Source of the DNA: Candolleomyces eurysporus
Taxonomy: Eukaryota > Basidiomycota > Agaricomycetes > Agaricales > Psathyrellaceae
Assembly (NCBI GenBank): GCA_027579435.1
Contig: JANBPK010000811.1
Span: 124,001-188,000 of the forward strand
DNA: 64,000 bases
Direction: 5' to 3'
The position numbers were made by a program, and so were the translations under genes. How positions within the stretch are numbered: position 1 is the stretch's first letter; the number at the start of each line of letters is the position of its first letter. This document shows positions 16,851-41,740 of the stretch, one piece after another. The notes under the pieces are model-generated. The model searched no databases, was not told the origin of the DNA, and was given only the letters and a program-made list of their open reading frames with translations.

Positions 16851-17423
16851 TCTCGGCCGTTGTCGGTCATCAGTTACCCAAGGCTCATCGCCCCGGGTCT
16901 TGGGACATCCGGTCGTGCCGCTCTTGCCGTAACAACAAACAACACCCTGGTTTTCCGACGTGTTTTTTCGTCAGTCCCACCTGTTGAGGATAACGTCTGG
17001 CAGTAACAAGTTATGCTTCAACTCGAAGCTTACCCAACAGTTGAGGCGCTCTTTTTCTTCTAATCTATTGCCAAGTCTTGCATTTAATTCATCCATGGAC
17101 AACTTACAATGGCTAATCCGGGAATTGGTCCCTTCAGGCGCTGGCGTCGTTTCTCTTCTCAGTTATCGTTTGATTAATTTAGATAATCCAAGAGGCTCAC
17201 GGATGGCACTTGATCCTATTTAATCTAATACATCCATAATAGTTGTCTCTCAGTCTCAGCATCGCATGATTGTCGATTCGACATGAATGGATCGAAAAAC
17301 TACAATCAAGGGCACCGAAGCGACTTGGCGGTGACCGTAACAGACCTGACCGGCTTTGAGTTGAGAGCAAATAAAAATTTTGTGGTTCCGAATTTTGTGG
17401 TGGTAGAATTGTATGGGTGATAT

Positions 17424-18367: not shown

Positions 18368-18732
18368 AGAATCAGCGCGTTTTGAGGTGCATTCTGACAC
18401 ACCAGGCAGCGGATCCTTACCTATAAGGGAGACAAGTCCTGCCTCGCTTTGCTACGGCTTCAATATCTGAGACTATGACTCAGGTACAGTTGTAGAATGT
18501 TAGCTTGTGAGTTCTATGGTCAATTTTTCAAGTTCTTCTTGAAATTTGCGTGCTCGTGGACGTACAGATCCTTAGCGTTTTCGCTGTTGTAGTGATTTCC
18601 TAGCCACATGCAGCACTGTCCCAATGTACCTCCAACGGTTGACATGAAATATGCAAAATACCAGTGCTTATTTCCTGCTGGGCGTAGTTTCTCAGCGCGC
18701 TCTAAAGCTCGAGCTTTGGCGCCTCGTATTCA

Positions 18733-19977: not shown

Positions 19978-20252
19978 GGGGATAGGGGATGCTGTTGTCG
20001 CCGTTGCGCGCTCCCATTCGTTTGCTTGCGTGACTGTTCCTCTTATTTTCTGGACATCAAGATTATCGCGCGTTCGTCGATGCAGTGTCGCCCCTCGTCC
20101 CACTTTGAAATAGTAATCTACATCAGAGTGTCAATCGGCTGAATTAATGTTCATTTGACCGAAAGGTCAGCTGCTCGAGAAGTACTTGAATGTCTACTGG
20201 GTCTGTCTAATCGACACTCTGATCTGGCTTAAAGGGTAAAATTTAGTAGGTA

Positions 20253-20672
20253 TTACTGCACATAATCTACTTCTACATAGGGAAGATCGGGTTGAGTGGC
20301 AGATGGTTGAGTGTGGGGTTGTGTGCTAATTGTTATTTGCGAGAAATTGCCCTTCGGAGTGATATCGAGGCTAAGAACACAGGTGACACCCGGCCCTGCA
20401 GGATTCATTCCAGTCTGTGCATGGGAAACAATCCATTTTAACAGCTGATGAACTCTGTGAGCTTGCCGATACAAAAATAGGAGGATGTAATGTAAACTTA
20501 CGAAATATACACTCATAACTGTCCAATCGCCAAGCCGCTGTGGGAGAAGAGTTAAAGGGTCACTCGAAAATCCAATCTAGGAAAGTGGTAACCCATACCG
20601 GCTGCATGTAGATCTCATCGACGCTGGAATCCGAGGAATGCTCCGAAACGTCGCCGGGACACTGCATCATAT
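20253..20672 (-). CDS. Conserved tail reading frame downstream of NLR-A, unidentified
   Basis: An ATG-ATG-CAG start overlapping the last NLR-A exon in another frame opens MMQCPGDVSEHSSDSSVDE. Further exon-like pieces follow across short introns (RLGDWTVMSVYF at 20537-20502) and a final stretch of about 68 codons, 20461-20253, with VHQLLKWIVSHAQTGMN. The unit B copy keeps the same pieces with conservative replacements (LLSDWRIIDAYL, VYQVLKWMAAKVHAGTN), suggesting it was coding. The phase between the second and last pieces is not resolved. It could be a small separate gene or alternative 3' exons of the NLR. No family is recognised. Confidence 0.4.
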
Positions 20673-23073
20673 AAAACATTCTGAGTGAGATAAGACGCAT
20701 CAAAGGAGAAGTGCACAGCTGACCTTTGCTCGAATCGCCGCTTCTACACGGTGCACAATTTGTTGCAAGGCCATCGCTTGATCTTGATGTATCTCTAGAG
20801 GACCCACAAAGCTAGTCTTCACCAGACTATTAGTTATGAGCTCGTAGAATGGCTGCTGCAGCCACTTTTCGGGTGCGTGATCACATTCCAAGGCCAAAGC
20901 CGAGGCCAGGGATTCCAGACACTTGATAAGGGCGCTCAAAGTCTGCTGGGGTTTGTAGTCAGGATCTTGGAACACCCAAAAGAAAAGTCGAGTGAATGAA
21001 AAGATGTGTGGATATGGCGAGGTTTTGGGGGCTAGGTTGGTGAACTGGCCGAGCTCGTCGTATATACTTGGTTCTGAGATTGCTTCCACAAACTCCCTCC
21101 AGTGCCAGCGGGATCGAACGCGCCACTCGCTTGATCGAATGACTGTTGGCGACAGAGGAGTATGGCTCAGCAGGTGCTCTAGATTGAGGCTGAAGTAGTG
21201 GTATGATAGCTTGAGGTGATACGAAGGCAATACGAAGAAACGTCCTGATCGACCTTCGGTCGTAAGGAACTGGTGGACGGATGGATGACAAATGGTCACA
21301 GGTGAGTCGACAGCGTCCGGGAGATCAATGACTGGTCGCAGAGTGACGAGGACCCCAACAACTTCAAGAATTTCAATGCCAAGGACTTTGCTGATCCCAG
21401 CAGCTGGAAGCGGCTCGATAACCAGGACGATAGTTGAAATTATGTCAGAGAAGTGAGGGTGACTTTGTGATTTTGCGAGAATGTGAGTGTAGAGAGCATC
21501 GAGCGTCTGAGGAGCGCGGGGGAGTGGACCTTGTGCAGTTGGTGGTAGGCGGGTGAACTGCTCGATATGCTTTGCAAAGTGGCGAATGCTGTACAAAGTA
21601 GCAGCAGTATCAAGCCGCCGCCCATCATGGAGGGTAGAGCAACGATACGATAGATAAAGATGATGTGAAGGAGGGGTAAAAAATGATCCAGAACGACTTT
21701 CGGTCGTGAGGAAGTCGCGCAAAGATGTGTGGCACATTGTAACAGGGAGGTCGTCGGTGCCCGGAATGTGAATGATTGCTTGCAAATTTACTAGGACGCG
21801 AACGACCTCGAAAGACTGGATACCAAGAAGTTCTGCCATCCCGATAATTGGAAGTGGTTCAAAGGTTAATGCGAGAGCTGATATTACATCGGAGAAATGG
21901 GGAAGATGCTGGGAACGAGAGAGTGTTTGGGCATAGAGGGTGTCCAGGCCCGGGTTCATGTTGAGGGCGTCGGGGAGACGGTCCATCGGCGTTGATTGAT
22001 CATCAGTAGGGTCGACGATGTATTCGAAGAGAGCGGAAGCGAAAATGAAAGATCCGTCGATGTGATCCACCAATTTGTCCTTATCCTTCTTCACTGGCCA
22101 ATCTCCGTGTTCTTGGATGTAAGCCCCGATGACGGGATTCCGTTTTTTCTCTTCCTCGAAGCATGTGTCCATAAAGGTGTCGATATCGTTACGGGAACAA
22201 TGGTTGACGAGGTTTTCCAGACGAACTTGATCGTTCTTCAGGTGGCCTGAGATGTGTTGTTCGACTCGACTGGTGATCAAGAATCGGAGGGGGATGAGAG
22301 GGTTCTTTTTGAAGAAGTCGAGCATGTCGTCAATGAAAGCTTCCACGTCTTTACGGTCCTCGCATTCGTCGAGCCCGTCGATGACGATCAGGAAAGGACC
22401 TTTGAGAAGGAAGGTCTTGAGGAGGCGGGCCCGCTTGGCGGCGGCTTTGAATGGCTCGTACACCAAGCGACGGAGCTGGGCCACCAGGCTTGATCCTAGG
22501 AGACCTGGTTCCTCCGCGACTGCCTTCTTGATGAACGGCGCCGCCTCAGGAATCGCAGCCGCGAGTTGGCAGGCCAGAGTGACAGCGAACTTGGTCATTC
22601 TACTCCTATCGCCGGTGTTTCTAAAGAAGAAGAAACTTGCCACCAGTCGGTTTCTTCGTTCGAACTTAAGCGCAATGGCCAAGGCGATAGCTGATTTCCC
22701 GCATCCCACAAAGCCGTAAAGCCAGAGGACGTGCGTATTCCACAGCAGCGTGCTATCAGCCCAGGCGACAATCGTGCGGATCGCATCTGTTCGTGTACCG
22801 GGAAAGCATGCCGAGTTTGGGGGAGATATCTCTCGATCTCGAGTGTGCGATGCATCGGGAATGGGCTGAAGGAGCTGAATGAGGGCTGCAAGGCCAGTCG
22901 TAAGTCAAGAGAAATATCCATGGCCCGTAGAATCACGTACGCGCTTGCTCCTTGGAGGAGACGTACTGGTTTCCACTGACGAAGTAGTACTTCTGCTCGC
23001 CAATCTGGATACCGCTAGCATTTGGCAGAACCTCAATGTGTACAGGGCTCTCGGCTATCTGGCTCTCGGCCAT
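20615..23073 (-). CDS. NLR-A: NACHT STAND NTPase with N-terminal RHIM-like tetrad
   Basis: Exons 23073-22941, 22885-20724 and 20680-20615 give about 786 residues. The short N-terminus has ASGIQIGEQKYYFV at residues 19-32; IQIG (22-25) equals the core tetrad of RHIM-type amyloid motifs. A linker with TRDREISPPNSACFPGTRTD leads to the NACHT domain: Walker A GFVGCGKS (102-109), FFFFRNTGDRSRM, and Walker B FLIVIDGLDE (~209-217). The helical region then shows SFIFASALFEYIVDPTDDQS, repeated DTLYAQTLSRS/DALYTHILAKS half-repeats, MCHTSLRDFLTTESRSGSFF and a degenerate second copy of that block. No WD40, ankyrin or TPR repeats were recognised at the C-terminus. By family, such proteins oligomerise on ligand binding and signal non-self recognition or cell death; the ligand is unknown. 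Confidence 0.85.
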
Positions 23074-24562
23074 CTGAGATGTCGAAGGATGGGTGTGGAT
23101 GGTTGATGACGAGGACAGGGGTACAAAGGAAAGGGGAGGTGAAGGAAGGCGGTGTGAGCGGAATCCCGTCGACACGAGGCTGACCCGAGTCACAAAGACA
23201 CATGACGTCCTGAATGTAAACGTGAATAGAACTTCTAGACGCTTTGGCAGCTCTGGAGCGGGCCATCATACCGTTAAGCGCCACTCATAACAATTGCGGT
23301 GGTCTACGCATTCGCTGCGACCGTCGATGGCGATGACGAAGGAGCGATGATCCCTTGGTGAGTCTCTTCACAACATCCTTGAAGGAGAGATAACCAGGAT
23401 CTTCAGCTGCGTAGTCATGCACACATTGCCTGGCAGTCAGCAAACGTGGCTTGGCCTCACAGAGCCTTCACTTCGGTCAAGGTTTAGATATTGAGACATT
23501 AATGAGTAATGCGCAGAATACCCACAATTAGTGGACAATGGCCTCGTTCCAAAGTTTCCTTTATAAACTGTACCAAAAGTCCACAGCCCCCGCCAGCCCA
23601 ACTCGGAATGGAATGAAAGGACGAGCATAATTTCATCGAACCTTCATCCCTCGACAGAAAGAGTGGTACCCTTTGTTGTGCTGGCGTTTCGATAGGCAAA
23701 ATTGATGTGTATTACCCCCTTTTTTGTTGCTTAAATTTTGAGATGCAGCGCGTACCGTCCGTCTCCTTTTGGGTTCCATCGCATTTCACCTCGACACGAC
23801 GTCGCCAATACCAGCAAAGCTTCTAAAGGGCGTAAAGGTCTGCTCTGACTGCGAGAATAGTAGAGACTACCACTGGAACGCTAAAGCCATTGTTTAATAC
23901 CCGCTGGCGCAGCCATGTGCTTCAGCCAACAGCTCAAACCAGTTGTGGAGTGACTGAGGAACATCACCAGGAACCGGTGCATCAATTCTGAACAATCCAA
24001 TTTTGCACAGTCCACAGGAATGCCATAAACGGAGGCAATCGTCGAGTCAATAATGCAAAAAACGAAGTTGGAGAGATTAACGAAGCAGGAAACAATTGTT
24101 CCCAACCCACAGGTCCGTCTCCCAATCCAGTTTAGACGACGAAAAGACTTGGGCTATCGACAGAAATAAACAAGCCATTTTTCAAAAAGCTGTCCATTGG
24201 ACCATGAATCAACCAGTGGTAAATCCAGCGCTGCAAGTGGGCCATGCATGAGTGGCTGCGTCGACCAGAAATTCGAACCTTGACGACTCGGCGCTGGACG
24301 TACAGAGAAGGAACAGCTGAGGCTGCCTGTCGTCAGTGCATTGACGGTCGGTCGAAATATGGAAAAGATAAGGCGAGTAGCCCATCTGCGGAGAGCCACA
24401 GAGGTCGAGGTTGAAGTGAAAGAGAATTCGGAAACCGAGGGGCTTTGTTGGTGTCCTTTTTATTTGCCGGTGTTTGGAACCAAAGCTGATGGCATCCGCA
24501 TGCATCCGACCCAGCGTCTCGACCGGCGGTCTCCTTCCCAAGGATGGCCACAACTCACAAAA
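23074..24562. other. Spacer of unit A
   Basis: The 5' side of NLR-A followed by sequence homologous to 27486-28908 of unit B (for example agccaacagctcaaaccagttgtggag matched at 28431). Coding-like minus-strand stretches at 24209-24400 resemble ones at 28650-28790 (RISGRRSHSCMAHLQ and RISCRHCHPWMGHLQ) but do not form a gene. Confidence 0.45.
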
Positions 24563-24687
24563 ATGGCGGACAAATGTACGTCTTGGGGTCCCCATAGCCC
24601 ATTATTACTCTAACGCTAACGATGACAACTTCAACAGCAGCCTACGCAGCCAAATCAATTCGCCCAGCATGTGGCAAACATCACTGC
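24563..24687 (+). pseudogene. Gene X 5' exon relic (unit A)
   Basis: The sequence from the ATG (MADK, then a gtacgtcttg donor) through the aacttcaacag acceptor and the start of exon 2 matches gene X at 28909-29060. It ends abruptly at about 24687, where unit B begins. The second exon carries a deletion. It therefore encodes nothing complete and marks the duplication breakpoint. Confidence 0.7.
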
Positions 24688-24719
24688 GCAGAATCTACTC
24701 CTACAGGGAGATGATAGGA

Positions 24720-25086
24720 TTAAGTAGCAGATAGCAGAGTATAGGGTTGTACGCTGATTTTCACTTTGTCACCCGGAGTATCGCTGATATGAAGGCCATG
24801 AACATGGGTGACGCCTAGCCCTGTAAGATTTGTTCCAGCGTGCACTTTGGCAGCCATCCATTTTAACACCTGGTAGACCCTTTAAGCCCGCTGAAACAAC
24901 AGTAAGAGAATGGAATTTCAAACTTGCCAGATATGCATCGATAATTCTCCAATCGCTAAGGAGCTTTGGGAGCAGTGTTAGCGGGGTCACTCGAAGGACG
25001 CAGTAGCACATACCCTGCCCATGCAGATCTTATCGACGTTTGGATCCCATGAACGCTTCAAAACGCTGCTGGAACACTGCATCATA
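24720..25086 (-). pseudogene. Tail reading frame downstream of NLR-B, decayed
   Basis: The homologue of 20253-20672. It keeps an ATG-ATG-CAG start, LLSDWRIIDAYL and VYQVLKWMAAKVHAGTN, but has a TAA immediately before VYQVLKW and another stop near the end. The unit B copy therefore looks non-functional unless spliced differently. Confidence 0.4.
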
Positions 25087-27485
25087 TGAAGGGCTCTGAG
25101 TGAGATAGAATGCGTAAGAGGGAATGCACGTAACTACCTTTGCTCTAATCGCCGCTTCTACACGCCGCACGTTGTGTTGCAAGGCCATTGATTGCTCATG
25201 GAGTATCCCTAGAGGTCTCACCAAGCCAATCTTCACGTAACCGAAAACCATAAGCTTATTGAATGAATAGTGCAGCCATCTGTCTGGTGCGTGATCGCCT
25301 TCCAATGCCAAGGCCAAGCATCCAATACACTTGGTGAGGACGGGCCAAATCTGCTGGGTTTCGGAGTCCACCCCAAGTGTGGAGCCAGGATCTTCGAATA
25401 CCCCGAGGAAAAGTCGAATAAACGGGAAGATGTGCCAGTATGACGAGGTTTGGGGGGGTAGGTCGGCGAGCTGGTCAAGCTCATTGTAGATAGTTGGGTT
25501 TTGCGAGATTACTTTCAGAAACTCCCTCCAGTGCCAGTGAGATCGATTGCACCACTGGCTTGAAATAGCATTTAGTGACGACGGAGTAGGGCTCAGCAGG
25601 CGCTCAAGATTGAGGCTGAAGTAGTTGCCGGATAACCTGAAATGATATGAAGGCGATACGAAGAAGCGGCCGGATCGACTTTCGGTCGTAAGGAATTTGC
25701 GGACGGATCGATGACACACGATCACAGGTGAGTGACCATACTCCTGGACATAGACGACTGGTCGCAGATTGACGAGGACCCGAACAACTTCGAAAGTTTC
25801 CATGCCAAGAAGTGCGCTGATCTCGGCAATTGAAATCAGTCCGGGTTCACGAAGCAGTATGCTCGAAATAATGTCAGAGAAACGAAAGTGATTCTCTGAT
25901 TTCGCGAAGATGTGAGTGTAGAGAGTATCGAGTGTTTGGGGGAAACGGGGGAATGGTCCTTGTGCAGCTGCTGGTAGCTGGATAAACTGCTCAACATGCT
26001 TTGCACCATGCCTGATGCTGTACAGAACAGCGGCAGTATCAGGTCTCTGGCTGTCATGTAGGGTAGAGCAGCGATACAATAGATAAAAGTGATAGGAAGG
26101 AGGGGTAAAGAAACATCCGGAACGGTTCTCGGTTGTGAGGAAGTCGCGGAGGGATGTGTGGCACATTGTAACAGGGAGGTCGTCGGTGCCTGGAATGTGA
26201 ATGATTGCTTGTAAATTGAGTAAGACCCTAACAACCTCGAAAGCCTCGATCCCAAGAAGTTCTGCGATCCCTATAATTGGAAGTGGCTCGAAGGTTAATG
26301 CGAGAGTTGATATGATGTCCGAAAAATGGGGGAAACTCTTGGAACGAGAGAGGGTTTTGGCATAGAGGATGTCGAGGCCGGGGTTCATGTTGAGAGTGTG
26401 CGGGAGACGGTCCATCGGTGTTGATTGGTCGTCGGTGGGATCGACGATGTACTTGAAGAGAGCAGACGCGAAAATGAACGAACCCCCAATGTGGTCGACC
26501 AATTGGTCCTTATCCTCCTTCGCTGGCCAATCCCCGTGATTGCGAGTATAAGCTTTGATGACCGGGTTTCGTTCGATCTCGGCCTCGAAGCAAGCGCTCA
26601 TGAATGTGTCGATGTCGTCGCGCGAACAATGGTTGACGAGGTTCTCGAGACGAACTTGGTCTTTCTCTAGGCAACTTTGAATGTGTTCCTCGACTCTGCT
26701 GGTGATGAAGAATCGGAGTGGGACGAGGGGGTTCTTCTTGAAGAAGTCGAGCATGTCCGCAATGAATGCCTGCACATCTTTGTGGTCTTCGCACTCGTCG
26801 AGCCCGTCGATAACAATAAGGAAAGGTCCCCTGAGATGGGTTGTCCAGCGCAGGGGGCCACTCCAGGCAGCCGCTTTGAAGGGCTCATACACCAGGTGAC
26901 GAAGCTGGGCCGCTAAATTCAATTGTGAGAGGCCTGGATTCGCGTTAATCGCCTTCTCAATGAATGGCGCCGCTTCAGGAATCGCAGCGGCTAGCTGGAA
27001 GGCCAAAGTCGTTGCGAACCTGGTCATTCTGCTTCTATCGCCGGTGTTTCGAAAGAAGAAAAAGCTCCCCACCAAGCGTTTTCTCTCTTCGAATATGAGC
27101 GCGATTGCTAGAGCGATAGCTGATTTCCCGCATCCCACATAGCCGTAAAGCCAGAGAACGTGCGTATTCCACAGCAACCAGCTGTCAACCCAGGCTACGA
27201 TTGTGCGTATCACATCTGTTCGTGTACCAGGAAAGCATGCTGAGTTTGGCGGAGAGTTTTCTCGGTCTCGAGTGTGAGATGCATCGAGAATCGGCTGAAG
27301 AAGGTGAACGAGCGCTGCAAGGCAAGTCGTGAGTTGGGAGAGAATAGTCGTAGTCCAGGGGATCACGTACTCGCTTGTTGGTTGGAGATGTAATTTCCGT
27401 TGACGATGTAGTTGGTCTGCTCGCCGATCCGGGTATTGTGAGCATTCGAGAAGATTTCAACGTGTGCAGGAGGGCTCTCGGCCAT
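25030..27485 (-). CDS. NLR-B: NACHT STAND NTPase
   Basis: Exon 1 is 27485-27371 and exon 2 is 27314-25139. A final exon 25095-25030 follows a 42-nt in-frame sequence that could be intron or read-through. The protein is about 800 residues and collinear with NLR-A: MAESPPAHVEIFSNAHNTRI, GEQTNYIVNGN, linker NSACFPGTRTD, Walker A GYVGCGKS, FFFFRNTGDRSRM, Walker B FLIVIDGLDE, SFIFASALFKYIVDPTDDQS and two copies of the FLTTE-RSG-FF block. The tetrad is TRIG instead of IQIG, so the RHIM-like core is altered. The stop codon position is shared with NLR-A. The reading frame appears intact. Confidence 0.85.
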
Positions 27486-28908
27486 CTGAGATGTCGAGAG
27501 GTGGGGTTTGTGTAGATGATGACTAGGAAGGGGAGAAGAAGAAACGGCACGACAGGAAGCGGTGCAAGCACAGCACAGTCTAACACGAGGCATGACAGTC
27601 TCGACACGAGGGTTTCCCTGAAACGGAAACTACACAAGACGCTTGCACGGCCACCCAGCTGAGCGCCTGCTGGTGCAGGTGACGATCATCCCCCATCCTG
27701 TCCCACGATCTCCAATTTTAACGAGATAGCGAGGTCTGGGATACGACAAGCATGAACTCAGAACTTTTTTTTGGTCGGGGAAAGTCAAGAAAGAGAGGCA
27801 GTTGCACGTGAGGCGTAGGATACCGGATTCAGGTGACAATGAACCCCTTCCAAACATCTCGTCAAGGTCCTTTCTTGTGAGTAGTAGAATTCGATGCTTA
27901 ACTATATCGAAGGGCTACGACCCCTGCCAGTAGTCCCCACCAAATAATAGCTCAGAACCGAACGATAACCAAAGATTATGTGTTTCCTTTTGGTTCAGCT
28001 GCCCGTTTCACGTCGATACAGCTAGTTCGAAAGAAAGAGAGAGAGTTCTATGACGCCGCCGCGGCGTCCGGTTCCAAAAGCTAGAGTCGTTGCTGAAGGC
28101 CTCGGGTGCAGCCCGGCCACAACTGGTCTGAGCTGTCGGTCCAAGGATATGGGGTCAGTAGCTGGAGAACATTGGCTATGGACTATCTACTCTATCAAGC
28201 GTCGTTTGGAGCGTTTTATCTAGCGTCCTGCTAGCACTCGTATATTATCAATGGAGGACATGTCTGGAGAACGGTGCAAGCAACCTAAAGAGTGCTAGGA
28301 GCAGGCTCAAAAGAACAAGCGGGAGAGCCTGCTGAAAGGTTCAAAGGGGAGCAGATTCTACAACGAACAACGCCACAACCCCAAAAGCGAGAGCTGTTGC
28401 CATATATCCCCAGCGTGGCTATATCCTCAAGCCAATAGCTCAGACCATTTGTGGAGTGAGTGGCTCAGGGATACCGCCGGCCAGGAGCCACTGCAGCGCC
28501 ATTATGCCAGGCTGGTCCAATCCAATCTTTGCGCAGCGCATAGAATCACCACAAATGGAGGACACTGAACTTGACGAAGATAGAGAGTGAGCACAACGAA
28601 GGAGTCCCGGTCCATGTGTCTTCTCCTAATCCCGTTTGAGACCAACGACCCACGAGTGACGGAGAGGAGTAGCAAGCTGAGGGGAAAATCACAGGGCCCG
28701 TGAGTCAAACGCAGCTGCAAGTGACCCATCCATGGGTGGCAGTGTCTACAAGAAATTCGAGCCAAGCTACTTAAGAACTCACAGGCAGAGCTTTCCTTGT
28801 TTGACAATGATTTGCCGATGTTTGGAGCCAAAGCTGATGGCATCCGACCCAGCGTCTCAGATCTCATCAACCGCTCTCGCTCCTGGCAAACGGTCACAAC
28901 TCACAGAA
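27486..28908. other. Spacer of unit B
   Basis: Contains the NLR-B promoter side and sequence shared with the unit A spacer. A minus-strand open frame at 28502-28897 has no recognised homology and overlaps the gene X promoter; I do not call it. Nothing else is seen. Confidence 0.4.
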
Positions 28909-29681
28909 ATGGCGGATAAGTGTACGTCTTGAAGTCTATATAACCCAGCCTTACTCTAACGCTAACGACGACGACGACGACGACGACTTCAACAGCAGCC
29001 TACGCAGCCGCAGCAGGTATCCCACTGATCAAATCGCCCAGCCTGCGGGTACCCAGGAAAGTGTGTAGTATTCTTATCTATATCCTCTCAGGCAACTGGT
29101 ATGGATAAGGCTAATAAACTTCAAAGTAGGTCGACCTCCCACCCGACATCCACCCTTTACCAGACTCAGTCACACCTTACGTACGTCCTCCTCAATTTTA
29201 CCTTTGCGATCTACCGGACATGCGTACTCACTTGTCGATTGGTCGGTTGCACCCACCTGACCGGCAGTTCGTCTACCCTTTCACCTTAGAACCTCATGTT
29301 CTAACGCTCGAATCCTCGCGGCGTTCAACCATCGCAGCGCATACGGCCAAACGCGAAGACTACCTACAGCAACGCGAACAGGAGAAGGAACGCAGGAAGA
29401 AAGAAGCTTTGAGACGTATCGCGCCTGGATTCGAGCCTCAAGCCGTGTTGGTACCTTCGCACAAGTACTCTAATAGCATGGATAGCGGTTTGAGTCCCCC
29501 AGGAATAGAAGGAAGTGGAGGAGGGACAGGGCATCACCAAAGATCCCGTTCAGTGATGGACGATTTGGTGGAGAGTCTAGCTGCTTTGGATGCTGCGAAA
29601 TCCGCTCCTCCGCCTTCTCAAGCCCTCTCACCGCCGGCGTTCCCGCCTCCTCCACCGCCCGTCAACCAGAGGCTTACTTGA
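28909..29681 (+). CDS. Gene X: conserved basidiomycete hypothetical protein (180 aa)
   Basis: Exons 28909-28921, 28996-29060, 29130-29180 and 29268-29681 join in frame (180 residues). The protein reads MADKSAYAAAAGIPLIKSPS, VDLPPDIHPLPDSVTPY, FVYPFTLEPHVLTLESSRR. A charged helical stretch follows (KREDYLQQREQEKERRKKEA), then RRIAPGFEP, VMDDLVESLAALDAA and a proline-rich end. It is soluble and partly coiled-coil; no function is recognised. It is convergent with the calcium-channel tail duplicate. Its 5' exons recur as a relic at 24563 and its body as a relic at 32860, so this gene was dragged along in the local duplications. Intron 1 holds a (GAC)n run at about 28967-28987. Confidence 0.75.
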
Positions 29682-30046
29682 CGTTCCTTCGTTTTCTCGA
29701 CGCTCTCAGATCTCGCGGTACTCGAACACTAGATGCGGAACTAAGAGAAAGGATGATGAAGAGGAGAAAGAAGATTATTTTCATTAGTAACTCCTACGGC
29801 GGCGGCGAAGCAGCTAAGGATCGATACTGTTGCAATTATAATACATAGGAGTGCATGTTGTAACGAGCCATATATGATCTAAACTACCAAATGCAAGAGT
29901 GACCTGAAGGATCCTAGGAATTGTATAGATATTAAGAAAGAAATGAAAGGGAGTCCCTCCGAGAGACCGAAAGTTCCGTCCGAAGCAAAGAAATCAAGAA
30001 AAAACAAGAAATAGAATTGAAGAAAAAAGAAAAGGAGAGACAAGGC
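29682..30046. other. Convergent 3' intergenic region
   Basis: A-rich and AG-rich DNA between gene X and the calcium-channel-tail exons of NLR-C. It is homologous to 33300-33600 (for example the phrase gcaattataatacataggagtgcatgttgtaacg). No gene. Confidence 0.55.
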
Positions 30047-32539
30047 TTATAGTGTTTCGGACATCGTGTCATCCACCACGATCGACGGTATTTCTGCGAA
30101 AGCGATCGATGTCAGAAAGCGAAGAAGAGTGGGTGGGTGAAAGGAAACAGGGAAACAAGGGGGTATGTGCATACCTTGCTCTTGGTCCATTCCAGCCCTC
30201 TTCTGCTCAACGTATCTCAAGAACCGCCGGCGGCAGACTACACCCCTCAACATCGACCTCGCTCTATCCAGGATGACCATATCATTGACCAGCTTGTTCA
30301 CTTCAGTTCGGATGACCGGATCGTCGAGCCTACAATAAGCAACCCACCCGTCAGTATTCATGATCAAGTACAAAACCACCATCGTAAGGAGGTTCGCGTG
30401 GAAAGGTGACGGTGAGAGAGAAGCGAAAGGAGGACTCACACCAACCCCTCCGCATCAACGATCGACTTGTGGTGCGCAAGTAGAATCAACATATCTGTGA
30501 ACGAAATCTCCCATCCAGGTACATGCAAAAAAGTAACCTCGCAGTACAACCGTGCATAAATAGCCTTGCGTCTTCTAATCTCTGCAAGGTTGACCCCGTC
30601 CAGGATGTGTTTGAGTTTGTCAAGGTCGATACCGCCGANCACTCGAGCTCGTGGAGACCAGGAAGTTGGGATAGGAGTTGGGTCCGACATGCATACAGAC
30701 ATGATGTTGCGTAGACTGTACTCTTCTGGGTAGATCCGGACTTCAAATATCCCGCTTAGACGCTGCATTGAAACCTTGTTATAACGTGGGATTGAACTGA
30801 AAGATAGGAAACCCCTACTCCGAAAAACGCCGTAAATCTATGGCTCTCCAAATGTTCCGTCTTTGGATGCGAAAACTCCGCCCACAGTTTCTTGAACGAC
30901 TGCATCTCCTTGCGGGTGATCGACTTGGCCCCTAATATAATGTCAGAGGAACGAAGGCGAATCCGTAAGTTCATGAGCATGTCAGCGTAGTTAATTTGAC
31001 GGAATTGTCGTTTTTCAGCTGGTGGTAGGCGGTTGGATTGTTGAATATGCTTGGCACAGTGACTGATGCTGTACAAATATGCGGCAGTATCAGGTCGCCG
31101 CCCATGACCAATTTTAGAGCAGCGAAACACTAGATGATGATGATAGGAAGGAGGGGTGAAGAAACATCCAGAACGACTTTCGGTCGTGAGGAAGTCGCGG
31201 AGGGATGTGTGGCACATTGTAACAGGTAGCTCGTCGGTGCCTGGAATATGGATGATTGCTTGCAAATTGACTAGGACTCGAACGACTTCGAAAGGCTGTA
31301 TCCCGAGAAGTTCAGCGATCCCGGTAATTGGAAGTGGTTCAAAGATTAATGCGAGAGTTGACATGACATCGGAAAAATGGGGAAGATGCTGTGAACGCGA
31401 GAGTGTTTTCGCATAGAGGGTATCGAGGCCTGGGTTCATGTTGAGGGTGTGCGGGAGACGGTCCATGGGTGTTGATTGGTCGTCGGTGGGGTCCACGATG
31501 TACTTGAAAAGAGCGGACGCGAAAATGAATGAACCGCCGATGTGGTCCACCAATTGGTCTTTATCCTTCTTCACTGGCCAATCTCCGTGACTGCGAGTAT
31601 AAGCTTTGATGACGGAATTTCGTTGCTTCTCGGCTTCAAAGCAAGCGCTCATAAAGGTGTCGATGTCATCGCGCGAACAATGGTTGACGAGGTTCTCGAG
31701 ACGGACTTGTTTTTTCTCTAGGCGACCTTGAATATGTTGCTCGACTCGGCTGGTAATGAAGAATCGTAGCGGGACGAGAGGATTCTTCCTGAAGAAGTCG
31801 AGCATGTCGTCGATGAAAGCTTCCACATCTCTTCGGTCCTCGCATTCGTCTAGTCCGTCGATGACGATAAGGAAAGGGCCACTGAGAAGGGATGTCTTGA
31901 GGAGGCGAACTCGCTTGGCAGCGGCTTTGAATGGTTCGTACACCAAGCGACGAAGCTGGGCTACCAAGCTTGACCCTAGGAGACCTGGTTCTTCTTTCAC
32001 CGCCTTCCTGATGAAAGGCGCCGCTTCAGGGATCGCAGCGGCCAGCTGGCAAGCCAAAGTGACTGCGAACCTCGTCATTCTGCTCCTATCACCTGTGTTT
32101 CGAAAGAAGAAGAAGCTCCCCACCAGTCGGTTTCTCCGTTCGAATTTAAGCGCAATGGCCAGGGCGATAGCTGACTTTCCGCATCCTACATAGCCGTAAA
32201 GCCAGAGGACGTGCGTATTCCACAGCAGCGTGCTGTCCGCCCAGGCAACGATTGTGCCGATCACACCCGTTCGTGTACCAGGAAAGCATGCCGAGTTTGG
32301 CGGAGATATCTCTCGATCTCGAGTATGAGATGCATCGAGAATGGGCTGAAGGAGCTGAATGAGAGCTGCAAGGGAAGTCATCAGCTAAGGGAAAACAGCC
32401 ATGGCCCAAAGAATCACGTACTGGCTTGGTCATTGGAGGAGATATAGTTTCCGTTGACGATGTAGTTGTTCTGCTCGCCAATCTGGATATTGTGACCATT
32501 TGGTAGAATTTCAACGTAGGCAGGAGGACTCTCGGCCAT
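30047..32539 (-). CDS. NLR-C: NACHT NTPase fused to a Cch1 C-terminal tail (chimera)
   Basis: Exons 32539-32422, 32365-30819, 30762-30440, 30329-30175 and 30093-30047 total 2190 nt: an open 729-residue frame with GT-AG introns. Residues 1 to ~515 equal NLR-A/B: NIQIGEQNNYIV (RHIM-like IQIG at 18-21), Walker A GYVGCGKS (97-104), Walker B FLIVIDGLDE, SFIFASALFKYIV and FLTTESRSGCFF. Identity ends at SSDII (about 30940). From GAKSITRKEMQSFKK the protein follows the cytosolic tail of the adjacent calcium channel: [48 protein letters not shown], then the basic [15 protein letters not shown], and stops after [15 protein letters not shown]. Intron positions of the tail match those of cch1. An N at 30639 lies in exon 3. 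Expression is unproven. Confidence 0.75.
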
Positions 32540-32859
32540 CTTGGGTGTCGAGAGATGGAGTGTAAATGGTTGATAACAAGGACAGGAGGAGAGAAGAAAG
32601 GGGACGAAAGAAACCGGTGCGAGCCTGTGCGAGCACACCAGTTATGATCAACGCGGGGCTAATATGAGAAATTGATGGCGTGCCAGTGGTGCTAAGCGCC
32701 TGCCGGCCGAATCTGTCGTATCATTCCATGATTGCCAATCCCAGCGAGATAACAATATGAAAGACGTGAATCCAGATATCTTTGTTGGAGGGAATGGAGT
32801 TTTCGACCTCCCACACTCAACATCTACGCACTCCTAGACTCGGTCAGACCCTACGCCTG
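32540..32859. other. Upstream of NLR-C
   Basis: The promoter side of NLR-C joined to the gene X relic. No coding region is seen; it is shorter than the spacers of units A and B. Confidence 0.4.
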
Positions 32860-33420
32860 CAAAGTGAATTAAGGTGCCCGTGCCTCTGGACTTGTGGTTT
32901 GGCTATCCATTCACTCTAGAACCCCATGTCCCGACATCCGAATCCTCCTGGCGCTCAAAAATCGCAGCGCACACCGCCAAACGCGAATACTACCTCCGAT
33001 TGCGTGAACAGGAATAGGAACGTCGTAAGAAAGGGGCGTTGAGGCGTATTGCGCCTGGATTCGAGCCTCGAATTGTGTTGGTGCCTTCACACATATACTC
33101 TAGCAGCGTCAGTAGCGGGTTGAGTCCCTCAGGAGGAGGGGCAAGAGGAAGTGATGGATGGGCAGGCGGCCACCAAGAATCCCGTTCGGGATGGACGATT
33201 TGGAAAGCCTAGCCGCATTGGACGCTGCGAACTCTATCTACCCCTCCGCCTTCTCAGACGTCGACGTTCTCATGCCACCCTGAGCTGATACCAGAACACC
33301 CGAACACCCGATGCGGAACCTGGAGAAGAGAAGGAGAAAGAAGATTATTTTAATTAGTAATAAATACAGCGGCGGAAAAGCAGNCTAGCGATCGATACTG
33401 TTGCAATTATAATACATAGG
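32860..33420 (+). pseudogene. Gene X relic (unit C)
   Basis: Homologous to gene X exons 3-4 and the 3' flank. Recognisable are the DSVRPY-like stretch near 32840-32862, YPFTLEPHV, an AAHTAKREYYLRLREQE stretch ending in TAG, RRIAPGFEP and the downstream ataatacataggagtgcatg phrase. An in-frame TAG and indels break it. It sits between NLR-C and the end of the intact cch1 gene, in the place gene X should occupy beside cch1. Confidence 0.7.
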
Positions 33421-33617
33421 AGTGCATGTTGTAACGGACGATATATACGATCTAAAATATCAGATCCAAAAATGAAAAGAAGGAGTTGTATAGATATCAA
33501 GAAAGAAAGGAATGCAAGTCCCTCCGAAAGTCAAAAAGTCAGTCCGTCCAAATAAAAGAAATCGAAAAAGACGAAAGAATGAATGAATCAAGAATGCGAA
33601 TGTCCTTTCAAGAAGGT

Positions 33618-36600
33618 TTAGAAACTCCTTCGTACGCCTGTCTCTTGCTCCGCAGCTTCAGCCATCAAATCTACAGAGGACAGTGCATCAGCTAACGTGC
33701 CTACGACGAACATCACCGTAACGGGCTACTTACCTCCCCACACAGAAGTCTGCATCGCGTTCACAATCTCGTCCGGATCCTCTTCGATCATCGATGTCCG
33801 CCTGTACCCAACGCATGTCAGTATTTGTACCAGCTAAAAGCAACGGAACAAAGACATACGGCGACCTAACACTTCCACTCTCCGAATACACCATCGAAAG
33901 CGTATTTGTAGTATGATCGCTCCCCCTCCGCAAATGGGAACTCCTCTGTAACCTCGCTGGATTCGTCGGGGAGAGCTCGTGTAGCGCAAACGACGCCGAC
34001 GTTGCCGATGGTGCCATACCCATGTTCGTATCTTGAATACTGAAATGCGACCTCCGAGGCGTAGGCGAGTCACCTCCGTACATTGAGTTGGTGATGTCCC
34101 GAGACGACATGGGAGGTGTTATTGGTGTTTCTGGCATTGTGTCGTCTACGACGATGGATGGGATTTCTGCAGATGGGATGTCAGTCAGCCAAGGGTGAAC
34201 CACAAGACAAAAGAATAGGGGGTAAAATTGAGAGGGGATAGGGATAGGTAACGAACCTTGCTCTTGATACATTCCAGCCCTCTTCTGCTCAAGGTACCTC
34301 AGGAACCTCCGTCGGCAGGTTAGGGACCTCAACAGCGACCGCACTCTATCGAGGTTAACCAGATCCGTGACCAGCTTGTTGACCTCGGTTCGGACTACCA
34401 GATCGTCGAGCCTGTGTAGATCCTCCTGTCAGCATTTTACTCAAACAATCGCGAACCCATCTTCCAGAGAGAAGACGTCGCGAAAGGGAGACAGACTTAC
34501 ACAAGAGCCTCCGCGTCAACAATCAGCTTATGATGCGCCAACAGTATAAGCATATTCGTGAACGAAATGCCCACTCCAGGTTCATGCGAGATCGTCGCCT
34601 CATGGTATAACCGCGCATAAACAGCCTTGCGTCTCCTAATCTCTGCGAGGTTGACTCCGTCTAGAACATGATCGAGTTTGTTCAGGTCGATATCGTCGAC
34701 GACCCTTGCCCTTGGTGACCAAGAAACTGATTTGGTCATTGTGGAGCTTGAAGATGCAGGATCCGACGACTTGCAGACGGACTTGATGTTAGGTATGCTG
34801 TACTCTGCTGGGTAGATTCGGACTTCGAAGATTCCGCTCAAACGCTGCATTGGAACCATGTCAGAGGAAGATGAAGGAAGGTGTGGATTAATGGAAGCTC
34901 ACATTAAAGAACGCCGTGAACCTGTGCCTCTCCAAATGGCCTGTTTTGGGATTCGAGAACTCCGCCCACACTTTCTTGAATGATCGCATCTCCTCACGAG
35001 TAATCGACTTGGCACCACTCCCAGCTGCTTGAAACACGTATGAAAAGTTTTCGACGACAACACCAGTGAACATGTTGACGAAGATGTACTGCAAATGGTC
35101 AAGTCAGAATAACGATTAGTGGAGAGGGAAGGAAGTGTAGATACCATGCTGAGGATATTCCAAGCGATGAAGAGTCCGAACGCCCAAGCCGTGCTTCCGC
35201 AGTCTGATAGGTTTCGAGTGGACGACGAGTTGGTGCACCGGGGGTACGTCAGATCGCTAAAGCAACCAAGCGTCAGTTTCAGTGCAATCAAACACGCAAT
35301 AAATTGACATACAAATCGTGCATGTATTGATTCCACCCCTCCCTAAAACAGGTTCAGTTAGATAGATGATCGCGAGTAGGGACGAAAGAAGAAAATGAGG
35401 GGCGAACGAACGGACGTACCCTGTACTCTGGAAAGCCAGCATAACGAGCGCCGAGCCCAACGAAGAGTAATTAATCGTCCGACTCTCTCCTCCACCCCAC
35501 TTCGTCAAACCAAACACCTCCACGAACAGGATCCCGAAGAATATGAACAAGATCAGCCAAAGGCCCAACAGGCTCAAGATCACAGGCAAACTCGATCTGT
35601 ATTCAAACCCCCAAGTCAGTCACTTCACATCGATCAATCAGTCGACAGATAGAACATACACAGCAGTTTTGAACAGCATATTCAAGCTATTCGTCCTCTG
35701 AACAAGCTTGAACGCAATGCTGACCAGGAACAATTTTTGAAGCTGGTTGATCACGAACCCACTGTGACCAAATTGAACGATGAGCAGGGTGATGAAACTG
35801 CCGTGCGCCACCGCCAGATCGAAGAGGTTCCATCCGTTGGCTTTGAAGCTCCGCCAGCGTAGACCGAATAGCCGTACGAGGACGTCGAGGATGTAGAATG
35901 CCATCAGCACCAGGAAGAAGGAATCTAAAAGGCCGTTAGGATCCGAAGAGACAATATGCTTCACATGAAAGACCCACTTCTCAGCCTTTCAGCGAGTTCG
36001 TTGTTCGAGAAGGCTTGACTCCTAGAAACATCGTCAACGAGCGCTCATAAAACAGCGGAAGAAGCACCAACATCAGAGCAATGATATGGAGGATAAACAA
36101 GACCGTCATCCCTCGAGACCACCATCCATGTTTCTGCACAGCCCGATCAAAGCACCACGACCGGAATCGATTCGTCGGTCTCTTCTTGGGGCGTTTCGAC
36201 GGCTTCTGACGCTTGAACAGCTTCTGGAGGTCGATCCACTCGCGTTGAGCCCGTGTCAAGAACGCAGAGCCCGTCCTCGAACTGAAGTTCCCAATGATGA
36301 TACTGAAAAACACGCAATCCGTATCAGCCAAACTCAACGCAAAAGTTCAAACGCAATGTAGCATACCTGATGAAGAGTGTCAAGATGACGACGCCGCCGA
36401 GGAGGTTATAGATGAGGAAAAAGATGGCGTTGAGCTGCGACGCATTCGTCTGCGGCTGCTCGTTCGGCCCAGTAATACTCGTCGCCACATTCATCGCATC
36501 AATCCACCCTTCCAACGACACGATCTCGAACAGGATGAGCAGCGACGACCTGAATGTATCGAAATTGAACGACGTCGACGGTGACGGATTGTCCCAAGCT

Positions 36601-39600
36601 CTCGGCACAGGAAACGCAAACGAATCTCCAACCACTGTGTTCGTGTACTCGTTCACACAAGCCCCTAGCCCATCCACGTCCCCGTCATTGCACGAGTTCA
36701 TCCGTCCAGCAAAGATATTGAGCCCCCAAACGGCGTACGGAATCATGTAGAGGATCGCCAGAACAGCCGCGTCCATAATACGAATCGCGCCGGAAATGAT
36801 GAGGTTCTGGAAGGTATTTCGCATCCTGTCGATGAGGGTGATGAGCCGCAACGCCCGTAGTGCCTTGAGCGACCTCGTTATCCGGGACAAACCACCAACG
36901 AAGATGAGGCCAGTGGTGACATTGACGATGATCCCGATCATGATGACAAAGTCGAGGACGTTCCAGATGCTCCGCAGGTAGGCGTTCGGAGTGAAGACAA
37001 ATCCGTCTGCAATGATCTTGATCAGGAACTCGACAAAGAGCATAAGCCCAAAGGACGCCTCTGCGATATCGAACCACGACCCCCGAATGAACCCATTTTC
37101 CTGATAGAATTTCCGTCGGAATACCGGGGTTGCGATGCTTTCAACGACGATTCCACCAATGACTGTCAGAAGGATGATGAGCTGGAAGATGGGGAGGGCG
37201 ATGGGCGAGTACGGTTGTCCAAAAATTCGCTCGCCTCTGGCAGGCTGGACGACCTTCTGACACATCTTGCGTAACCAGTTTTTCTGCGAAATGACCCAAA
37301 AGGCTTTGTCGTACGAAGGATGGTCCCGCATGAAATCAGCCTTCTGAGCTCTCCGTTCCTGGTATTCGTCGTCCTCGTTCTCCTTGTACGCCGCCTCGTT
37401 GTTCACGGATGCGATAAGTTCCCTATACAAAGCTCAGAAACAGCCATATCAACAAGGTTGTATTATTACTCACAGATGACGTTCAATCTCTTCGTCGTAG
37501 GCATCGGCACTAGCCTCTTGTCTCCCGTTTCGGAAGGTGCTCATCTGAATAGTCTCATGAGGACTACTGCCTTCGCCAGCGAACAACTTCTCGAGCGCCG
37601 TCAGCGACTTGGAAGAGTAATGCTGAGGTTTGAATCGCTTGGAAAGGAACGTCTTCGTCGTCGCCTACGCAAATCATTAACAAGAGTCCACCGACACTGA
37701 ACACCAACCACCACTCACCGGCATCGGCTTGGGCCTAACATCCGACCTCGGCACCCCATGGTCCTGCACCAGCGTCTTCTGCATCGGCAACACCAGATTG
37801 GAGGGCAAGTTCTCGACTTTCACAGTGACAGGGTTGGCCTTGATCCACCGGTACGGATTCAACTTGCGAATCCACGACGACGTCCCCTTCTTCGCTTGCT
37901 GCTGACTCCAGTAATTCGACGCCTGCTTCCCCTTCTTCGCTTCCTCAGCGACGTCAAAGTTCTCGTTGATCACAGCGATGAACATCTGGAGCACGATGAC
38001 TACACGATTAAAAAAAGGACAATGAGCTCCACGAACGGTAGATCTGATGAAATCAAAGAAAACTCACAATTCGCAAACAACATCCACGCCGAAATGAAGA
38101 TGAGGCAAAGAGCCGTCTGACCGAGGTTGATCTCCGCCTGCGCCGCGCCATACAGCACGTCCACCCAATTCTCCGACGAAAACACTTGATACATCGCCAA
38201 AAACGAGTTGAACAGCTCTCCAAAGTTGATAGCCGTATCGCCCCCCAGATCTCCACGCAACAGCTGCACCGCCACGAGCGCCGCGATGTAATTGACGAGC
38301 AAAAGGAAGAGCGTCATGTTGGCCAGACCATACATGTTTCCAAAGACCGCCAACTGAGGTTTCCCGAAAATCAGAAAAACGAAAAAAGGAAGAAGGAGAA
38401 ACGACGACGATCCGACTCACCAACAAAGGCTTCATCCTCGGCACGACCAAGATAACCCTATAAAACCTCGCCAGCTGGAAAATCGTAAACCACGGATACA
38501 CACTCGAGCTCTGAATGACCGGAATCTGTATAATCGAGCAAATAATCGCCAGGAACGTATCCAGCCAATTATTCCCATGCTGGAAAAAAGTCCTCCAATC
38601 CGGTAGGGTCGCCAACACCCGCAGGATGATCTCGAGGTCAAACGCCAGGGTGATGACCAGCTCGCCGTAGTAGAGCATCCGCTTGTGGTTGTCCGTCATG
38701 TCGACCGTTTTGGAGGCTTGGAGAGCGAGCGATGCGAGGGCGAGCAGGACCCAGCACCATTTGGTGTAGCCGTATATTCGTTTAGCCATATTGGATCCAG
38801 CGGATTTCCGGCCTTCGACCATCGCCCAGCCGTCCTCCCCATCTTTCTCGGTCTGGACAAGCCTAGAAGGATAGGATTAGCACGACGGGGAGGAAATAGC
38901 CAACGTGAACGCGACAACTCACGGAGCAGCACCAAAAGCGCTCTTTTTTGTTTCAGCACGGATGGCGGCAAAGCTGTTCGTGATGACAGCGACGAACAGG
39001 TTGATAAGCCAGAAATTCAACACGATGATCCCGATAATGAAGAAGAAGCATGAAACGAAGAACTCAGAGTCGATCATAGAGTACATCAACGGGGTCCACT
39101 GCAATCGTGAGTCAGCAACGCGTACAACCTACACACAGGCGACCGAAAAACATACCCCGTTGGCAGTCGCGATAATAATAACCTGAAGCGCCGAAAAGTG
39201 GATAGCATCAAAGCTTTCTAGCTCGTTTTTTGGATTGACAGTTTCCTAGAAAACCAGCAAGGTAAGGGGCATGTATCAACCAACGATAACGAGGGCGAGC
39301 ACGCACCTTGCAAATCTGTCCAAGGGGGCATATATATCCCTTCACGACGCGTGAGTTCGTGTTTTTGGAGGGGGAGAGGTAACCGATAGGCTGTAGTGTT
39401 TGAGGATCTATATATCCCCCACAAAATTGGTTGTCTAAGAGAATCTCGTCTTCTCCAAGCGTCGGGTTCAAGAAGCACGAACGACGGAGTGAACCATTGA
39501 ACGACTGGACACCAATGATGCTAGAAAAAAATTGAGACGAGTCCATACTCTGAACGAGGGCTCGTGCACTCACGAGAATAGAATCATGGCGAATAGCACG

Positions 39601-41740
39601 AAGTAAGTGACGTTGGCAAGTAGTGGTCGTGCCGTTTTGAGGGAGTGCATGATGGTCTATGTGGTGATATATCATCAGGATGTATCTTTGCAAAGACGAT
39701 GAAGGGAGCGTACCGTGGTACCCGAGGTGATACTAAGCAACCTCGCCGTTCTGATCACACTCAGCGCACGGAAGACACCTATATGGTACGTCCCTCGCTC
39801 CACCCCGGCCATTGCCAAACCGAACATGATCCAGAAGCTGACGACCGCAATAAAATCGATACGGTTCCAACTTTGCCTGAGATAGGGAACGTTGCGATGA
39901 GTCTTGTCGTGGAGGTGGTTGATGCTCAGCCGGAATGGAAGCTTGAGTTCGTCTTGCGTGTTATCGGAACGCATGGCTCGGGAAAGGAATGTAGGTGTGT
40001 TGGGGTCACGAATCGTGTGATGAACATTGGATGCTGCGTCTTTAATGCGTTGCATAAAGTGAGAGTCGTTATAATGGTGCATATCGTTTTGAGGCACTTG
40101 AAGGTGACCGTTACCATTAGCAGAATGCTGCAGATGGGCTGAAGAAGGGGGGAATGGTGTCATGGGGGGTCGAGAGGATAGTGCGAACGGTCGAATGAGG
40201 GTTGACTGTATCTGTCGGATACGGTGCGTGATGGATCCTCCTCGAGTGAGCGATGCTTGCCGTGACACTCCGTTCTGGCCAGGCCCTTGAGCAGGCATAT
40301 ACGGTTCATTGCCTTTGGGTTCGCTGAAAGGGCGGAACATGGAGACATCGGGGTCGAAGATGAAACCTGTAACTGCCATTCGCGCGATAGCTTCGATACT
40401 AGACTGCGGATCAGAGAAAGCATACGGCGACAAGGAGTAGACTCACGTAAATACGATGAACAGCCCAAATAGCACGTAGTCTTCCCAGGCATGAAAGTAA
40501 CCATTGACCTTTGGTGGTAGCACTGGTCCATTGGCAGTCGGAAGAGTTATGGAGGGGAAGGCTTGCGCTGTCAGAACGGCGGCGTTGACGATAATGAGGA
40601 TGAGTATCAGCGGCTCCGTGAGGGGATGCACGAGGAAATTAAAAAGGGCAAGCCGCAGTCGATTGTTCTCCCCCAAGAAACCCAGTGTCCGGCCTCGTAT
40701 TGGTAGAACCTGCTTCAAATCTGGTCCCTCGACGTCGTCGTCATCCTTGAAACTCTTCTTGCTCCTGGAGGACAGTGGTTGGTCTTCGTCTTCGGTGTTA
40801 TTCAGCCGTAGCTGGTCCGCCATACCCGTCCCTGCCAAGTTCACCACCCGCAACGACATCCGCCTCAACGTCTTCACCGCGCTCTCGCCCAACTTCAAAG
40901 GAGATGGTGTGACGCTGTATCGCTTCGCATTCGTCTTCCGTTTCGATTTTGGCGACATCATGGATGTTGCTCCAGTGATTTCAGGATCCTCCGAAGACGA
41001 AGAGGGTGAAAGGGGTTGGAAACCCTCCTTGCCTCCGCTCGTCCCAGCAATCTGCGACATGTTGGTGGTCAAGTGAGCTTCGTCGTCGTCCCTCTGTGCG
41101 TCCACAAGCGAAATTCTTGAAGGACCGGCTTCATGGGAAGAGTAGTAGTTGTAATTTGAGTCGTTGGAGTAATTTGTATCCCTCCTCCACGCNGGGTCGT
41201 AGAACGGATCGTCNTTTCCTATCGCTGGCGGCGACGACACCATGGTTCCGCCCGTCCAAATTCTTNCCCCCTGCCTGCAGTGGGTCCCGCCCGGCCGATG
41301 CATTGGTTCTCTCCAGCTCGAAGGTAGCATCAAGCGATGCCCTGTTTCCCCAGCTTGTTCTTCTCCGCGCTGTCCGGCTGGTGGAGACTTCCAACGACGG
41401 AGAAGGCGGGGCGGAAGGGTGGTTAAGAGAGCCCCCAAGTCCTGCTGGAGTTGCCGATAGGTCGATGGCAGATGTCGCGGACCGTGGCGAGGGGTTGTAC
41501 AAGGTCCGTTGTGGCCTGTCTTCGTCCATAAAATGGCCCCGCCGAGTGTTTGCGAGGTCGTTGTCGACGTCGACGTCGCCGACGAAATCGAGGTGGAAGT
41601 AAAGGGTGCGTGAGAAGAATTTGTGGCTGAGTTATCTGGTACCCCCAGATGGCACATTGAAGGCCGCGCAACACTCGGCTCTATACTTGGTCCGATACTA
41701 TGTAGGACAAAAACAGTTGCGTTCATCGATGTATTAGGGA
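33618..41740 (-). CDS. cch1: Voltage-gated calcium channel alpha subunit Cch1
   Basis: About 20 minus-strand exons encode a four-domain, 24-TM channel. Domain [21 protein letters not shown], pore [19 protein letters not shown] and [15 protein letters not shown]. Domain [17 protein letters not shown], pore [12 protein letters not shown] and [20 protein letters not shown]. Domain [23 protein letters not shown], with a GWIDAMN pore. Domain [17 protein letters not shown], pore [13 protein letters not shown] and [19 protein letters not shown]. The tail has an EF-hand-like [32 protein letters not shown] and the basic IQ-like [15 protein letters not shown], and ends [13 protein letters not shown]. 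Cch1 with Mid1 forms the high-affinity plasma-membrane Ca2+ influx system of fungi. Extracellular loop I is cysteine-bearing. The N-terminus is uncertain: a spurious N at 41214 shifts frame, and the start lies between about 41530 and 41740. Confidence 0.92.

Follow-up and report, generated by a model that had tools for sequence, protein, structure and literature searches.

A NACHT receptor-like gene joined to a copy of the neighbouring calcium-channel tail in Candolleomyces: a possible integrated bait arising by tandem duplication

How does the tail of a calcium channel come to stand, in frame, at the end of an immune-type receptor gene, and may it serve the receptor there? The question is raised by a gene of the basidiomycete mushroom Candolleomyces eurysporus (Psathyrellaceae) that lies in a stretch of 64,000 nucleotides (nt) of contig JANBPK010000811.1 (assembly GCA_027579435.1, positions 124,001 to 188,000), hereafter the window, in whose coordinates positions are given. 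The gene joins the body of a NOD-like receptor (NLR) of the NACHT type to a copy of the cytosolic tail of Cch1, the high-affinity calcium channel encoded by the adjacent cch1 gene. We read it as a receptor of the NLR-like kind into which a channel-tail domain was integrated by duplication and whose tail would act as a bait or sensor, a reading that we hold to be evenly poised between acceptance and doubt.

The fusion gene (minus strand, 32539–30047) comprises five exons totalling 2190 nt, which encode 729 amino acids and a stop and are separated by four GT-AG introns, so that the frame named NLR-C in the original prediction is borne out by the exon model (Table 1). The homology switches from NLR to cch1 at about 30936–30931, in residues 516–518, just where a change after some 515 residues near 30936 had been proposed. 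Residues 1–517 belong to the NACHT/NPHP3_N family (Pfam: NPHP3_N 1.4e-23, NACHT 3.5e-10, both over the curated cut-off) and are 82–83% identical by blastn to two full-length relatives in the window, NLR-A and NLR-B. Residues 518–729 represent the Cch1 tail; the blastn match extends over 30173–30932 and 34255–35016 (E 3e-99), and the fused tail shares 78% identity with that of Cch1 from the same genome. The three tail introns coincide with cch1 introns in position, as had been noted before. The joined part begins past the last S6 helix (placed by alignment), the fusion contains no pore or voltage-sensor segments and Pfam lists no ion-transport domain for the protein, all of which agrees with the earlier description of a tail module free of transmembrane domains. 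Exon 3 is 7 codons shorter than its cch1 counterpart, the difference being in frame and within a variable loop, and the last 128 residues of the Cch1 model have no counterpart, since the fusion frame ends after 15 codons of exon 5. A single N within exon 3, at 30639, is a G in haplotype 2 (see below). No repeat family (ANK, WD40, TPR, HEAT) was found by Pfam at E <= 0.1 in the fusion, NLR-A or NLR-B frames, and for this reason we call the gene NLR-like rather than an NLR in the strict sense. As a separate observation, the N-terminus NGHNIQIGEQNNYIVNGN (32422–32539) looks by eye like the agaricomycete amyloid-like NLR motif meta-family described in an extract of PMC9815663.

A misassembly can be rejected. 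In the 65.85 Mb assembly, a search with the tail gave 12 exon-level matches, which are accounted for by three exons each of cch1 and the fusion in two haplotypes; C1283:25389–39890 is colinear with 26761–41258 of the window at 96%, the same junction is found on this second contig within 14.5 kb of such sequence, and the architecture recurs in a second species. The GenBank sizes given in an extract of PMC12786890, 70 Mb in C. eurysporus as against 33.6 Mb in C. efflorescens, fit the presence of two haplotypes in the C. eurysporus assembly. The in-frame fusion is thus real in the window's haplotype (haplotype 1), for which the statement that no stop has accumulated also holds; it fails for haplotype 2 (C1283:31171–28677) as assembled, where one extra base in the T-run ending exon 2 produces a stop. 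The database protein H1R20_g9618 (P0006, C. eurysporus) is identical to the translation of this copy up to the stop (554 residues), and the exons downstream remain open in the expected frame. No alternative splice site that would rescue the copy was seen by eye in the alignment, because the stop precedes the donor. The extra base represents either a broken allele or a consensus error; errors of this kind do exist, since over 6153 aligned nt of the cch1 model the two haplotypes differ by just one exonic indel, an inserted N.

The arrangement of the locus suggests how the gene arose. Read from right to left it consists of cch1, the cch1 3' flank, an element that we call X, the 5' part of an NLR, the tail copy, a copy of the 3' flank, X again and the full NLR-B. 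This order is what a single tandem duplication would leave, given one breakpoint in cch1 and another in an NLR, the fusion being formed at the junction. The 3' flank has genome matches only beside cch1 and beside the fusion, and many database relatives of cch1 carry the names calcium channel or CCH1. In the NLR tree the fusion body has closer relatives than NLR-B, a placement that would need later turnover in the array. The 183-residue frame of X, open in both haplotypes, has no credible Pfam match; X-like pieces occur at 10 further places in the genome, and the three inspected (C571, C151 and C1235) lie near NLRs and contain stops or frame changes.

Whether the tail was kept as protein can be judged from its divergence. 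Between the fused tail and cch1 the synonymous divergence (dS) is 0.95–1.12 and the nonsynonymous divergence (dN) 0.13–0.14; in a codon model the ratio of the two rates (omega) is 0.129 on the stem, that is, the branch between the fused tail and cch1 (likelihood ratio 88.3 versus an omega of 1), and 0.024 on the cch1 haplotype branches. The stem value pools the fusion and cch1, and it speaks for constraint on the fusion only on condition that the fusion accounts for a good part of the divergence. Irrespective of that share, none of the three gaps that separate the fused tail from cch1 in 636 nt of exons is out of frame, as against 15 of 17 in the three tail introns and 11 of 16 in the duplicated X and 3' flank (26 of 33 for introns and flanks together). 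The changes in the tail avoid sites conserved among Cch1 relatives, of which 118 out of 118 were usable (p 0.0245 for haplotype 1, 0.0027 for haplotype 2 and 0.0021 for the C. efflorescens protein described below). Were half of the synonymous divergence neutral and on the fusion side, about 10 stops would be expected (minimum 3 in 300 runs), and haplotype 1 has none. These are signs that the tail may have been under purifying selection over most of its history.

The original prediction had proposed to look in related genomes for other NACHT proteins with a Cch1 tail, and one was found. A tail-only search among proteins of about 400–1280 residues returned 6 hits out of 454 candidates: H1R20_g9618, four pieces of Cch1 (a composite gene model contains one of these) and MD484_g6819 (P0001), a predicted C. 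efflorescens protein of 785 residues with NPHP3_N, NACHT and the Cch1 tail. Its gene, the cch1 gene of that species (MD484_g6822) and six more NLRs with neighbouring numbers are each located on a 77,931-nt contig. Compared with the C. eurysporus junction, the C. efflorescens one retains roughly 15 Cch1 residues more, and its NLR part is about ten residues shorter. The NLR tree was built from 44 rows, all of which passed the coverage limit (41 proteins hand-picked from the 120 listed of 475 hits, with the fusion, NLR-A and NLR-B added). In this tree the MD484_g6819 body groups with other C. efflorescens cluster genes (99/98) and the window's fusion body is placed with genes of C. eurysporus and C. 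aberdarensis and two of C. efflorescens (88/91); forcing the three fusion rows into one clade costs 89 log units (approximately unbiased (AU) test, p 1e-37). In the tail tree of 12 rows (three fusions and nine hand-picked cch1 sequences, P0055 having been dropped for its aberrant end) the MD484_g6819 tail groups with C. efflorescens cch1 (91/89). At 16 sites that differ between the cch1 genes of the two species, MD484_g6819 matches its own cch1 at 9 and the other at 2, and the window's fusion likewise at 9 and 2. In alignment columns 203 and 210 the window's fusion has two changes in common with the cch1 of C. eurysporus and C. aberdarensis, from which one would predict that C. aberdarensis carries, or once carried, the C. 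eurysporus fusion. On this sequence evidence, two independent tail captures in the two species are most likely.

Several observations weigh against a receptor whose tail has been kept for use. On the fusion haplotype branches omega reaches 0.57, a value that does not differ from 1 (p 0.20) and exceeds that of the stem (p 0.0018); the comparison of tail and cch1 called for in the original prediction gives a low value for the stem and, for recent time, one not distinguishable from 1. A neutral tail is compatible with 0.129 if only about one tenth of the divergence occurred on the fusion side. Given the count of amino-acid changes, a simulated neutral tail is stop-free in 11% of cases for the window and 4% for MD484_g6819, which makes the open frame alone weak evidence. 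To these points are added the stop in haplotype 2 as assembled, the 3' flanks, which at 77–85% identity are less diverged than a dS of about 1 suggests (local gene conversion may be one route), and the AU test of the tails, in which a single fusion-tail clade is not rejected (p 0.076). Much of this would be expected if the fusion were a non-functional by-product, a chimeric gene formed at the duplication junction and now decaying; the differences between haplotypes in the tail (9 synonymous, 15 replacement; p 0.086 versus neutrality), the loss of the last 128 Cch1 residues and the number of duplicated NLR units at this locus are in line with decay as well. The low stem omega, however, together with the complete lack of stops in haplotype 1, the exons free of frame-shifting gaps next to introns and a co-duplicated X copy that have many, and the same architecture in another species, makes decay unlikely, though with a chance that is far from negligible. 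A frame that is open by mere chance is disfavoured by the omega, gap and site tests, the stop count alone being weak.

The two fusions may have a common origin instead, one ancestral fusion predating the species split, after which the tail was converted by each cch1 and the body by neighbouring NLRs. Such a history, which would alter the account of the origin only, agrees with the presence of an NLR cluster beside cch1 in both species, with the closely placed breakpoints and with the result of the AU test on the tails. The junctions differ, however, and would hardly be interchangeable by conversion alone, the NLR bodies reject one clade, and the changed sites that coincide between the two fusion tails show no excess (6 versus 9.5 expected), so that we consider it quite improbable. 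MD484_g6819 as a simple ortholog of the window's fusion is likewise not favoured by the NLR-body trees, the tail test by itself giving the p of 0.076. A separate oddity is the C. aberdarensis protein EST38_g12727 (P0002), in which Hsp70-type Pfam domains are combined with a partial Cch1 ending inside the tail; it reflects either an error of gene modelling or a further rearrangement of cch1 in Candolleomyces.

The tail family resembles the channel-type EF-hand pair, together with a long helix that has an IQ-like stretch, and NALCN is its best match in sequence and structure comparison. A sequence search of the PDB with the tail gave nothing credible (best E 0.067). The predicted structure of the C. 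efflorescens fusion is too poor to use (mean predicted local distance difference test score (pLDDT) 45); for the Cch1 relative P0004 the mean is 67, with blocks in residues 111–230 at 82–96, and Foldseek with this model found no match at E <= 0.001, the best one (0.0027) being NALCN in the channelosome with calmodulin bound. A receptor gated by Ca2+ or calmodulin could be built on such a domain, the tail binding calmodulin or a calcineurin-pathway protein and coupling NACHT activation to the Ca2+ signal; an extract of PMC6291166 reports that injury of a filamentous fungus drives up both cytosolic Ca2+ and transcript from a NACHT gene. The tail, however, shows by eye no acidic EF loop of the canonical kind, and the structural match comes from the Cch1 relative rather than from a fusion; we give this explanation a small chance. 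Very unlikely is a channel regulator, a soluble tail that, being so similar to its Cch1 original, competes for the partners of the channel while the NACHT part only tunes abundance or assembly, since between haplotypes constraint on the NLR body is at least as strong as on the tail (omega 0.317 versus 0.48; Fisher p 0.49).

The bait or sensor reading can be put as a sequence of steps. A tandem duplication would have brought together the 5' two thirds of a NACHT gene of the NLR-like kind and that part of the neighbouring, equally oriented cch1 gene which encodes the greater part of the cytosolic C-terminal domain. This would yield a soluble receptor of 729 residues in which a short N-terminus and a NACHT switch are followed by a NALCN/Nav/Cav-type tail in place of the usual C-terminal sensor, the part of this receptor class that is thought to repress the switch (extract of PMC12258605). 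The tail would serve as an integrated bait or sensor for whatever binds or modifies the Cch1 tail, candidates being a factor from a parasite or virus or, after hyphal fusion, a non-self partner; a ligand caught on it would set the NACHT switch free, and oligomerisation and a signal for defence or cell death would follow. We infer the expression of the fusion, the sensor role of the tail, its ligand and its output. Bait is our first choice because the Cch1 tail occupies the C-terminal sensor place in both species and integrated decoys are proposed for fungi. Thus, among the three readings first offered for this gene, the integrated decoy is retained conditionally, the Ca2+-responsive NLR appears weaker for want of a canonical acidic EF loop, and the by-product is not the best reading because of the signs of purifying selection and the second species. 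More broadly, and only tentatively, we suggest that same-direction NLR arrays may turn the cytosolic domain of a neighbour into a sensor by tandem duplication, and may have done so at least twice with the Cch1 tail in Candolleomyces, Cch1 being an attack target or a non-self cue; such decoys would descend from the very neighbour that they guard.

Plant NLRs with integrated domains or decoys are NB-ARC/LRR receptors; the likeness lies in a receptor with an inserted host-like domain as bait, and the difference in the NACHT domain and in the lack of repeats found by Pfam here. In filamentous fungi an NLR-like protein reportedly watches the essential protein SEC-9, the two genes being linked; there the target is separate, whereas here the receptor itself contains a piece of the protein encoded next door. 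The domain itself is homologous to the EF-hand-pair C-terminal domain of Cch1/NALCN channels, from which the fusion differs by having no pore or voltage-sensor segments. Closest to our case are the NLRs of Sordariales, 8% of which carry non-canonical domains (185 in all, among them putative integrated decoys), according to an extract of PMC12258605. In both, a fungal protein with a nucleotide-binding domain has gained a domain copying a separate host protein, such as the CHK2/PRD-4-like kinase domain, mostly at the C-terminus in that source; unlike these ascomycetes, ours is a basidiomycete, and the added part is an ion-channel tail taken from the adjacent gene, in two species.

No report of a NACHT–Cch1 fusion appeared among the listed results of our searches of open-licence PMC papers, in keeping with the earlier remark that a calcium-channel tail on a fungal NLR was not known to be described, and the terms "EF-hand" and "ion channel" are absent from the main texts of the fungal NLR surveys PMC4986451 and PMC9815663. 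The acquisition of a decoy by a receptor is usually reconstructed long after the event. In C. eurysporus the donor gene, the duplicated flanks, the junction and two haplotypes still stand side by side, and the sister species provides a second case, so that how a receptor-decoy fusion is born, kept and lost becomes traceable and testable. If true, the bait reading would hint that immune-type receptors watch the fungal high-affinity Ca2+ channel.

Table 1. Features of the fusion locus in window coordinates.
Feature	Position	Strand	Basis or remark
Fusion exon 1, ATG and short N-terminus (MAESPPAYVEILPNGHNIQIGEQNNYIVNGNYI...)	32422–32539	-	
Fusion exon 2, NPHP3_N/NACHT body, junction, first Cch1-tail residues	30819–32365	-	Pfam and homology
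Fusion exon 3, mid Cch1 tail and second EF-hand-like unit	30440–30762	-	
Fusion exon 4, Cch1 tail with pre-IQ and IQ-like stretch	30175–30329	-	
Fusion exon 5, short end of frame and stop	30047–30093	-	
cch1, high-affinity calcium channel gene, 5' end uncertain	33618–41626	-	Exon model
Donor region, cch1 exons matching the fused tail (35016–34903, 34844–34501, 34411–34257, 34166–34123)	34123–35016	-	
Copy of cch1 3' flank	29720–30003		Pairs with 33298–33569
cch1 3' flank, original	33298–33569		
Element X, open 183-residue frame, head-to-head with NLR-B	29130–29678	+	
Second X copy, with stops	32883–33257	+	Control for decay within the duplicated block
NLR-B, full-length relative that the proposed duplication would have left behind	25030–27480	-	Limits approximate
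NLR-A, further full-length relative	20560–23075	-	Limits approximate

The fusion body belongs to a large family: at least 39 other places in the genome match it over >=1.2 kb at 77–94% identity, among the 40 of 249 candidates that were scored, one of these places being haplotype 2. NLR-A and NLR-B (20252–29009) appear to be tandem units of about 4.4 kb that include upstream sequence, and pieces of the module following NACHT match again near their C-termini. Just upstream of cch1 there is apparently a further NLR-like gene (42993–44835, minus strand; by eye, from the gene model), with which cch1 would lie inside the receptor array; the interval from 44241 to 44307 contains 27 Ns. Elsewhere in the window, a large inverted repeat (17423–18368) has two arm pairs (157 and 140 nt) that adjoin each other and are 96–97% complementary, with 355 nt between the inner arms, and 51890–55098 contains a tandem-duplicated stretch whose pieces, about 2.1 kb apart, are 80–89% identical.
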